From: Pezicula radicicola
Taxonomy: Eukaryota > Ascomycota > Leotiomycetes > Helotiales > Dermateaceae
Assembly: GCA_003008705.1 (NCBI GenBank)
Contig: PDUO01000009.1
Span: 868,001 to 932,000, forward strand
Length of the DNA: 64,000 nt
Direction: 5' to 3'
Shown here: piece by piece, positions 28,566-31,251 of the stretch
Layout of the letters: the number at the start of each line of letters is the position of its first letter
Numbering within the stretch: the stretch's first letter is position 1
The notes under the pieces: model-generated
The model's database searches: none
What the model was told of the DNA's origin: nothing
Seen by the model: the letters and a program-made list of their open reading frames with translations, nothing else
Position numbers and translations under genes: made by a program

Positions 28566-28700
28566 TTCCGAAACGGGGAATTGAACCCTATCCAATTGTT
28601 AGTTAATGTCATACTATTATGTATGCTCAAATTGTTACTTACCCGGTCTCCTGCGTTCATAAATGAGAGGCAGAAATGCTAGCCACTACACCATTTCGGA
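28566..28700 (-). tRNA. tRNA-Glu(CTC) with two introns, one mRNA-like in the T arm
   Basis: The minus strand starts TCCGAAATGGTGTAGTGGCT (acceptor strand plus A box) and ends with the B box GGTTCAATTCC and TTTCGGA, which pairs with TCCGAAA; the discriminator is A. The anticodon stem TCTGC pairs with GCAGG around loop CTCTCA-C, giving anticodon CTC. An 8-nt intron (28663-28656) sits at the canonical position after base 37. A second interruption, 28642-28588 (55 nt), splits the T arm. It begins GTAAGT, has CTAAC at 28602-28598 and ends ATAG. Removing both leaves 72 nt with a perfect T stem CGGGG/CCCCG and the variable region AGACC, as in other fungal tRNA-Glu. T6 at 28560-28555 is a good Pol III terminator. 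No other copy is visible in the window. Confidence 0.88.
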
Positions 28701-29183: not shown

Positions 29184-31251
29184 CTAAGTCATGGAGTACT
29201 TCGGGCCTTCGCCTCCTTGTGGTGTTGACCAATTTATATCTACACATATCAAATTAGCAGGAATATTCCTCTAGGATATAGAGATTGGCATACCCTGATC
29301 TGGAACCTTGATATCGCAAGTCTTACAATGAATGCAGCTAGAAAAGATCAGCGGTGAAAGCATGTAAAGTATGATGGACCTACTTTTGGGCGTTGATCTG
29401 AAACCTTACGCCAATATCCTTCGTCTCGTCCTCTACATATTCATACACTCCCGCTGGACAGAACCTATTCTCAATTCCCTTGTATTTTGGCCATTCCATC
29501 TGGGCATGCTTATCCCAATCTTTTACCTGTAGATGAACAGGTTGGTCTTCTTCATGATTCGTTCCCGTCCTGCTGACACTTGTTAAAATATCGAAGCTAA
29601 TCTTTCCATCCGGCTTCTCATATTCAATCTTTTTGCATTGGTCAGCGGTCTTTGTCGCCGAGGCGTCTGTTCCCTTATGAGCAAGAGTCCATGGAACTCT
29701 TCCTTTCAAGACGTAGGCTTCCAGTCCGGAGTACATAATACCACCATATAATTTCAATGGTGTATGGAATGAAGGTCGCATGTTACGTACTTCCTTCAGC
29801 TCTTTCCAGATGAAGGACTTCCGCAGTGCATCTTCGTAATCGTAGAGGAACACGGTACCAGTATCTGAAGCATCGGAAGCACCCAGGGCGTTCCAAGTTG
29901 CTTCTGCTGCAAGCATTCCAGACTTCATGGCAGTATGAGTGCCTTTTATCTTTGGAACATTGAGGAAGCCAGCTGTGTCACCGATCAAGGCACCGCCAGG
30001 GAATGCAACCTTAGGTATAGATTGGAATCCACCCTCATTGAGGGCCCGAGCCCCGTACGAGATGCATTTCCCACCTTCAAGTACTGACTTGTACAACGGA
30101 TGTTGCTTCATCTTTTGAAATTCGCCATAAGGCGAGAGCCAAGGGTTTGGGTAGTCAAGTCCAACGACGAGACCAATACTGACAAGATTGTCACCAAAAT
30201 GGTACATCCAACCACCGCCGTATGTATCCGCCGCCAGAGGGTAGCCCATAGAATGCACAATCTGACCCTTTTGGAACTTTTCTGGTTGCACCTCCCATAC
30301 TTCCTTCAGACCTAGGCCGTAGGTTTGAGGCTGACTCTCTCGGCGGAGGTCGAATTTCTTTATGACCTGCTTTGTGAGACTTCCGTGGCATCCTTCAGCA
30401 AAGAGAGTGATTCTTGCATGAAATTCCATGCCTCTCTCAAAGCTATCCTTGGCCTTGCCATCTCTGGAAATACCCAAGTCGTTTGTCGCCACTCCCTTAA
30501 CAGAGCCGTCCGACTTATATAGAACCTCGGAGGCAGCGAATCCAGGGTATACTTCGACACCAAGCTCTTCTGCTCTTTCTCCAAGCCAACTGGTGAATTG
30601 GTTCAAACTCACGATATAGTTCCCTTTGTTATGCATCTGCGGAGGCGCAGGTATTGGGATCGCACTCGATTTTGTGAGGAATCGCATCTTGTCACCTCCC
30701 GCGGGAGTGACATGTTCAAATCGGTTTTCATTGTCTTCTGCAAGCCAATCTGGTATGAGTTCATTGATAGCTGTCGGTTCGATAACTGCTCCTGAAAGAA
30801 TATGTGCTCCGATCTCGCCCGCCTTCTCCAAGACCAACACCCTGAAATCTTCATTGCCGGCCTCATTGGCAAGCTGCTTCAATCGAATGGCAGCGCTTAG
30901 CCCAGCAGGACCTGCATTGACTGGTCAACCATGGTTATACAAGAGGAATGCTATGATCTCACCTCCGCCGATTATGCATACATCAACCTCGTCGGTCTCT
31001 CGATCAACTGACTTGGGATCAAAAGCCTCAGTCACGTCGGCAAAGGTTCTGGGGAGTGAAACAGAGAAAGAGGCACGTTGTTGACCAGGGCGTCGGTAGA
31101 TGCATGTGGTGGCGGGGCGGGTGTAGGAGGGGCTTGTTTGGAAACGAGGTCGAGGGATTCGAGAAAGACCAGCAATTGAAACCCTCAGAGAATTCTGGCT
31201 CACAGCGGTGCGCTGCAGGCATGCGGTGACGGACCTAGATGAGGAAGCCAT
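29184..31251 (-). CDS. Electron transfer flavoprotein-ubiquinone oxidoreductase (ETF-QO)
   Basis: ETF-QO passes electrons from acyl-CoA and amino-acid dehydrogenases, via ETF, to ubiquinone at the inner mitochondrial membrane. Four exons fit: 31251-30963, 30911-29384, 29337-29294 (44 nt) and 29239-29184, giving 638 residues, close to the family's usual size. The Arg/Ser-rich N-terminus (MASSSRSVTACLQR) is a likely mitochondrial presequence. The FAD fold DVCIIGGGPAGLSAAIRLKQ is assembled across intron 1. The ubiquinone/flavin regions GAHILSGAVIEP and GDTAGFLNVPKIKGTHTAMK are intact. The 4Fe-4S ligands are FCPAGVYEY in exon 2 and NCIHCKTCDIKVPDQDINW, which exists only after splicing exons 2, 3 and 4. 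The protein ends GGEGPKYSMT. Reading straight through would stop at 29382 and lose the cluster. Confidence 0.96.

Follow-up and report, generated by a model that had tools for sequence, protein, structure and literature searches.

A tRNA-Glu(CTC) gene on the minus strand of the window (the 64,000-nucleotide stretch of Pezicula radicicola DNA that was analysed) is interrupted in its T arm by 55 nt. This insert carries the signals of a GT-AG intron of the spliceosomal type and would most likely be removed from the Pol III transcript by the spliceosome; counting this gene, 13 or more tRNA genes of the genome are so interrupted.

The features of the gene are collected in Table 1. A first-pass annotation of the sequence had described an A box, a B box, a T6 run, a CTC anticodon, and a T-arm insert that starts GTAAGT, ends ATAG and contains a CATAC/GTATG pair; all of these are present by direct reading and mapping, and the 8-nt anticodon-loop intron is likewise confirmed. 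The A and B boxes are assigned by consensus. One detail needs adjustment: CTAAC, which had been placed 10 nt before ATAG, does end 10 nt before the end of the intron, but that is only 6 nt before ATAG. The insert can be set in three registers, all of which lead to the same product. The element CAACAAAC upstream of the gene is common to many tRNA genes of this genome and is presumably a start-site element.

Table 1. The tRNA-Glu(CTC) locus, in positions of the window
Feature	Position	Strand	Basis or remark
tRNA-Glu(CTC) gene, two introns	28700-28566	minus	sequence reading and mapping
tRNA-Glu(CTC) exons, 72 nt in total	28700-28664, 28655-28643, 28587-28566	minus	72/72 identity with six paralogues
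Anticodon-loop intron, 8 nt, at 37/38	28663-28656	minus	register can slip
T-arm insert GTAAGTAACAATTTGAGCATACATAATAGTATGACATTAACTAACAATTGGATAG, 55 nt, predicted spliceosomal intron, between tRNA nt 51/52	28642-28588	minus	sequence
Predicted 5' splice site GTAAGT of T-arm insert	28642-28637	minus	sequence
Predicted branch site CTAAC of T-arm insert	28602-28598	minus	ends 10 nt before intron end
Predicted 3' splice site ATAG of T-arm insert	28591-28588	minus	sequence
CATAC/GTATG hairpin within T-arm insert	28625-28610	minus	sequence; hairpin and role putative
A box TGGTGTAGTGG	28693-28683	minus	sequence
B box GGTTCAATTCC, immediately 3' of the 3' splice site	28587-28577	minus	sequence
T6 run, likely Pol III terminator	28560-28555	minus	begins 5 nt past the tRNA-Glu end
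Upstream element CAACAAAC, 22 nt 5' of the gene	28722-28715	minus	
Degenerate second tRNA-Glu 3' half, 82 nt downstream of the gene	28484-28462	minus	2 mismatches over 21 nt

With its insert in place the gene escapes standard searches. ARAGORN reported no tRNA in the whole window and Rfam at gathering cut-offs gave no match there; the Rfam tRNA model scores the interrupted gene at 27.5 bits, below the cut-off of 29. When ARAGORN was given the gene itself, neither the unspliced form nor the form lacking the anticodon intron alone was called; removal of the T-arm insert alone gave Ser(cga), and removal of both introns gave Glu(ctc). The same Ser(cga) miscall was returned for an intact paralogue (L036) with an anticodon intron of 9 nt. 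Upstream of the tRNA gene and on the same strand lies a gene for ETF-ubiquinone oxidoreductase (ETF-QO; about 29185-31245, minus strand), which has three short introns (46-54 nt) and ends about 485 bp from the tRNA gene. Among the best 120 of 8000 scored, the top matches to its protein are 93% identical and come from Coleophoma cylindrospora, C. crateriformis and Phlyctema vagabunda, which places the host in the Helotiales.

The remainder of the 61.0-Mb assembly (152 contigs) was searched for related genes. A 21-nt pattern from the 3' half of tRNA-Glu, allowed up to three mismatches, matched 14 places in the genome. Seven are tRNA-Glu(CTC) genes and four are tRNA-Glu(TTC) genes; the others are one relic near the window gene and two more loci that resemble tRNAs. 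A count of other intact tRNA-Glu(CTC) genes had been proposed beforehand, and there are six. Each has the same 72 of 72 exonic bases as the window gene and an anticodon intron of 9-31 nt, and in the alignment the T-arm insert is absent from all six. Since these insert-free paralogues share the same exonic bases, the insertion in the window gene is exact and its exons are undecayed; the decay of exons, promoter or terminator by which a pseudogene would be recognised is not seen, the exons being identical at 72/72 bases and the boxes and T6 run being kept. Six intact copies also make the window copy dispensable, so that, as one of seven, it could be silent even if the class of intron is real. 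Two tRNA-like loci with long anticodon-loop inserts (L040, L042) and a relic of a 5' half (L046) were set aside after reading.

Further interrupted genes were recovered by two routes. The first was a genome search with a pattern of CTAAC, AG and B box, which gave 12 matches compared to 3 for the reversed control. Six are T-arm introns (the window gene and five tRNA-Asp(GTC) genes) and one lies in a tRNA-Ser(TGA) gene; the other five were not counted, that on C68 being an ordinary tRNA-Asn and those on C36, C65 (two) and C109 being loci where no intron-bearing tRNA was recognised. As the pattern requires CTAAC and AG, the presence of these two signals in the five Asp genes and the Ser gene is no independent evidence.

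Searches with exon patterns gave seven tRNA-Asp genes, of which six are interrupted (on C79, C80, C95, C98, C112 and C131) at one shared position in the T stem, while the seventh, on C76, has no insert. The sixth interrupted gene, which has CTAAT, was found without the CTAAC/AG pattern. The exons of the interrupted genes are 0-1 base different from those of the C76 gene. All six introns share GTANG, TACTAAY and ATAG but vary in length (52-60 nt) and in their remaining bases; they are copies of one another and do not count as independent cases. A conserved stem in the Asp intron was considered and rejected, covariation being unsupportive (72.7% of cells paired, no two-sided change).

A separate feature of this family is a leader of ACTCTGATNNTTCATC and a hairpin, about 38-40 nt, found 5' of the mature end in all seven tRNA-Asp genes (L068-L074). 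The element ACTCTGAT with its hairpin is paired in 7/7 genes with two two-sided changes, a result matched by 40 of 500 shuffles. It is read as a leader because TCTTTGA pairs fully with the 3' end; such a leader would be long, and the alternative is another interruption, one that is not of the GT-AG kind. The C76 and C131 Asp genes (L068, L074) are preceded by further decayed tRNA-Asp 5' halves, which give the locus the look of a tandem duplication.

The second route, a search with the Rfam tRNA model, required no splice signal. It gave 57 matches, with 63 of 2516 candidates scored; 53 of the matches were read, the other four spanning 72 nt and thus being too short to hold an insert. Inserts outside the anticodon loop were present at five of the 53 loci. 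Each of these inserts starts with GTAAG, contains a branch-like site and terminates in AG. They lie in the variable region of two tRNA-Val(TAC) genes at 47/48, in the acceptor stem of tRNA-Thr(TGT) at 4/5, in the D stem of tRNA-Arg(TCT) at 10/11 and at about 9/10 in tRNA-Lys(TTT); the Arg and Lys introns split the A box. Exon patterns reaching up to three mismatches, beyond which more diverged copies are missed, showed that both Val(TAC) genes found are interrupted, with exons identical to each other, as are one of two Thr(TGT) genes, one of three Arg(TCT) genes (plus a relic) and the one Lys(TTT) gene of its sequence type (also plus a relic). The interrupted and intact Thr genes differ at positions 6 and 67 and nowhere else; the two positions form a pair, and pairing is kept. 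Two further tRNA-like loci, L085 (C77:252794-252942) and L088 (C109:672923-673077), have unusually long anticodon-loop inserts, 84-85 nt in the model alignment.

The thirteenth gene is the Ser(TGA) gene on C81 (L062), which has GTATGT, CTAAC and two candidate 3' AGs, both of which lead to Ser(tga). With the window gene included, the count of tRNA genes that have inserts of the GT-AG type comes to 13, spread over seven families. This count is a lower bound, since an interrupted gene receives a low score and only a small part of the candidates was scored. Together with 51/52 and a site near 48-50, the positions listed above make six in all, none of them at the canonical 37/38. Both kinds of intron are found in 11 of the 13 genes, and Thr and Lys have the GT-AG kind alone.

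It is clear that the inserts share the signals of mRNA introns. GTNNG, a branch-like site of the form CTRAY or TTAAY, and AG are present in all 12 inserts tested, and the Ser insert is alike; the branch-like site stands 9-15 nt before the 3' end in each of the 12 and is CTAAC in nine, CTAAT in two and TTAAT in one. When each insert was shuffled (20,000 trials each) the full set of signals appeared in 0.01-0.09% of shuffles per insert; for the window insert, where the register was allowed to slip, the figure for GTNNG, a branch-like site and AG together was 0.06% of 20,000. Furthermore, none of 46 anticodon-loop introns of the genome has even GT..AG in any of the seven registers tried. A chance origin of the splice signals was set aside on the basis of the shuffles and this 46-intron control. 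The inserts are 50-60 nt long, compared to 52-63 nt for five U6 introns and 46-54 nt for the three ETF-QO introns, which form a small yardstick.

The proposed boundaries were examined with ARAGORN, which called none of 12 interrupted genes correctly in unspliced form. All excisions of 45-65 nt were tried. For 12 of the 13 genes the predicted one led to the expected type of tRNA, and in seven it was the sole GT..AG excision to do so. The exception to this single-excision test is the window Glu gene, where the correct call comes when the anticodon intron has been removed too. In Val and Ser many GT..AG excisions pass, and the test is therefore weak there. The window intron was also considered as a mobile introner copy; its first 33 nt, with up to three mismatches, occur at one place in the genome, the intron itself, and this origin was rejected for it.

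Splicing signals of this kind bear on which enzyme would remove the inserts. They might instead be ectopic introns cut by a relaxed, archaea-like tRNA endonuclease, as in Cyanidioschyzon or nucleomorphs, with GT-AG being incidental; anticodon-loop introns are indeed present in these genes, and ectopic D-arm and T-arm introns handled without a spliceosome are on record (PMC4090602, in excerpt). The 4-bp central helix of the bulge-helix-bulge motif is, however, complete in none of 12 inserts, the best having 3 of 4 pairs in two genes, and the GT, branch-like site and AG found in 12/12 are not a requirement of that enzyme. Cleavage by such an endonuclease thus appears extremely improbable.

The nature of the transcript is addressed by another gene of the same genome. 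U6 snRNA genes are transcribed by Pol III. The U6 gene on C3 (394362-394523, minus strand) has two introns and that on C109 (377193-377402, minus strand) has three; these two genes bear the labels L145-L147, and removal of the introns from both leaves nearly the same U6. The five introns are 52-63 nt long and have signals like those of the tRNA inserts, one of them beginning with GC. A U6-like locus at C146:17702 (L144) has a diverged sequence and no intron. With introns of a like kind in a Pol III gene, it is hardly probable that splicing takes place on Pol II read-through transcripts containing the tRNA and not on Pol III precursors. The window gene does lie, at the distance given above, downstream of the ETF-QO coding sequence and on its strand, as read-through would need; against this, it keeps its A box, B box and T-run, a run of at least four T begins 4-22 nt past the tRNA end in 12/12 genes (latest in Arg, 22 nt), and the interrupted loci are scattered over many contigs.

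The first-pass annotation had offered two readings of the window gene: its tRNA may depend on both splicing systems, or a recent intron insertion may have silenced the gene. The second, extended to the whole class, would mean that intron-like sequences entered tRNA genes that are redundant and that the copies so interrupted are unspliced pseudogenes. Glu, Thr and Arg do have intact copies, and several of the interrupted genes have decayed relics close by. Insertions in the D or T arms of eukaryotic tRNA genes, which mostly affect a single member of a large synonymous set, are held to be marks of pseudogenes (PMC4090602, a 2014 review, in the portion available). Such an explanation is nevertheless unlikely, given that six of seven Asp genes and both Val(TAC) genes found are interrupted, that exons are undecayed in Glu, Asp, Arg and Val beside relics that are decayed, that the splice signals have been kept across six diverging Asp introns, and that pairing in Thr has been kept by a two-sided change. 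For the class, then, the need for both systems is favoured (seven families, 6/7 Asp, 2/2 Val(TAC), intact exons and two intron-bearing U6 genes). For the window gene itself, the presence of six intact Glu(CTC) genes is one of the two conditions under which the first-pass annotation would have called it a disrupted pseudogene, and this copy could be silent.

The relics carry some information on history. The window Glu gene and each of the six Asp genes with an intron are followed, about 70-215 nt downstream, by a second, often decayed tRNA 3' half. Four of the Asp relics have 0-1 mismatch to a 22-nt pattern, and the other two, on C95 and C112, have decayed and were recognised in the alignment; among the pattern matches there is no 3'-half relic beside the six intact Glu genes or the C76 Asp gene. 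In the 3 kb around the Val, Thr and Lys genes no 3'-half relic was found, and there is one near Arg. Two truncated relics, of Lys (L137, C2:1589671) and Arg (L143, C62:85322), still have the 3' end of an intron (CTAAC..AG) before the exon. The relics beside Asp, Glu and Arg genes indicate a tRNA gene set that is turning over. The C76 Asp gene has a 5' flank that can be aligned to the 5' flank of the C131 gene, and 37 of 38 bases at the 3' end of the C76 gene are those of the C131 relic; this similarity fits loss of the Asp intron through recombination between gene and relic, with gain as the alternative. The introns may have originated by repeated, independent gains in Pol III genes of this lineage, to be followed by copying in the Asp family and probably by one loss (Asp on C76).

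On the favoured reading, that of splicing from Pol III precursors, maturation would run as follows. Pol III would transcribe the window Glu gene from its A and B boxes and stop at the T6 run, and the spliceosome would then remove the T-arm intron in the nucleus. This removal would complete the T stem and with it the L-shaped body read by the tRNA endonuclease; the 8-nt anticodon-loop intron would therefore be cut second. Because the inserts carry the splice signals of mRNA introns, the mRNA splicing machine would likely be required for the maturation of these tRNAs; both machines would be needed by 11 of the 13 precursors, and the spliceosome alone for Thr and Lys. Where the intron splits the A box, in Arg and Lys, part of that box would be supplied by the AG at the 3' splice site; this split, and the late T-run of Arg, count against the favoured reading. 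As far as the sequences allow, the spliceosome is thus probably a tRNA-maturation machine in this fungus, serving most tRNA-Asp, both tRNA-Val(UAC) and members of five other families, usually with the endonuclease acting next, and its Pol III genes are probably open to intron gain. If this is true, Pol III transcripts beyond U6 are routine substrates of the spliceosome, tRNA supply is tied to pre-mRNA splicing and translation depends on it directly; intron gain and loss could furthermore be followed in genes for which every base of the product is known.

How does this compare with known systems? The first-pass annotation knew of no such arrangement in a nuclear tRNA, and in the published open-licence literature searched no report of spliceosomal introns in tRNA genes was found; the window gene does not stand by itself, as there are at least 13 in the genome. 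Splicing of tRNA is described as independent of the spliceosome (PMC13149111, in the part available), and a further review yielded no mention of the spliceosome. Here one genome appears, from its genes, to route many tRNAs through it. For tRNAscan-SE 2.0, detection of non-canonical introns is described for archaea (PMC8450103, in excerpt); with this focus, with none of 12 unspliced genes called correctly by ARAGORN and with the window gene below the Rfam cut-off, other fungi may hide such tRNAs.

Canonical anticodon-loop introns are found in the same genes and the same genome as the inserts, and differ from them by position and by signals, none of the 46 having GT..AG. Ectopic tRNA introns are described in archaea, in the red alga Cyanidioschyzon merolae and in nucleomorphs at positions away from 37/38, D and T arms included, and at times alongside a canonical intron of the same gene (PMC4090602, in the sections available). 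Those introns rely on a bulge-helix-bulge motif and the endonuclease, or on an unknown mechanism, whereas here the helix is never complete (0/12) and the signals are GT, branch site and AG. A spliceosomal-type intron in fungal nuclear rDNA is given as one example in a methods list (PMC11782384, in part); such introns are alike in having a non-coding host RNA that is not made by Pol II, and differ in that the host is rRNA and the polymerase Pol I. Nearest are the introns of fungal U6 snRNA and U3 snoRNA, which are likewise short, of the GT-AG kind with a branch site, and placed in a small structured RNA. They are described as normal spliceosomal introns, and among small structured RNAs frequent interruption is said to be known so far for these two hosts alone (PMC5832005, 2017, in excerpt). 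In the present case, by contrast, the hosts are tRNAs, the promoters are internal and most precursors also contain an intron of the endonuclease type; the kind of intron is already known, and it is the class of host gene, tRNA, that appears to be new.
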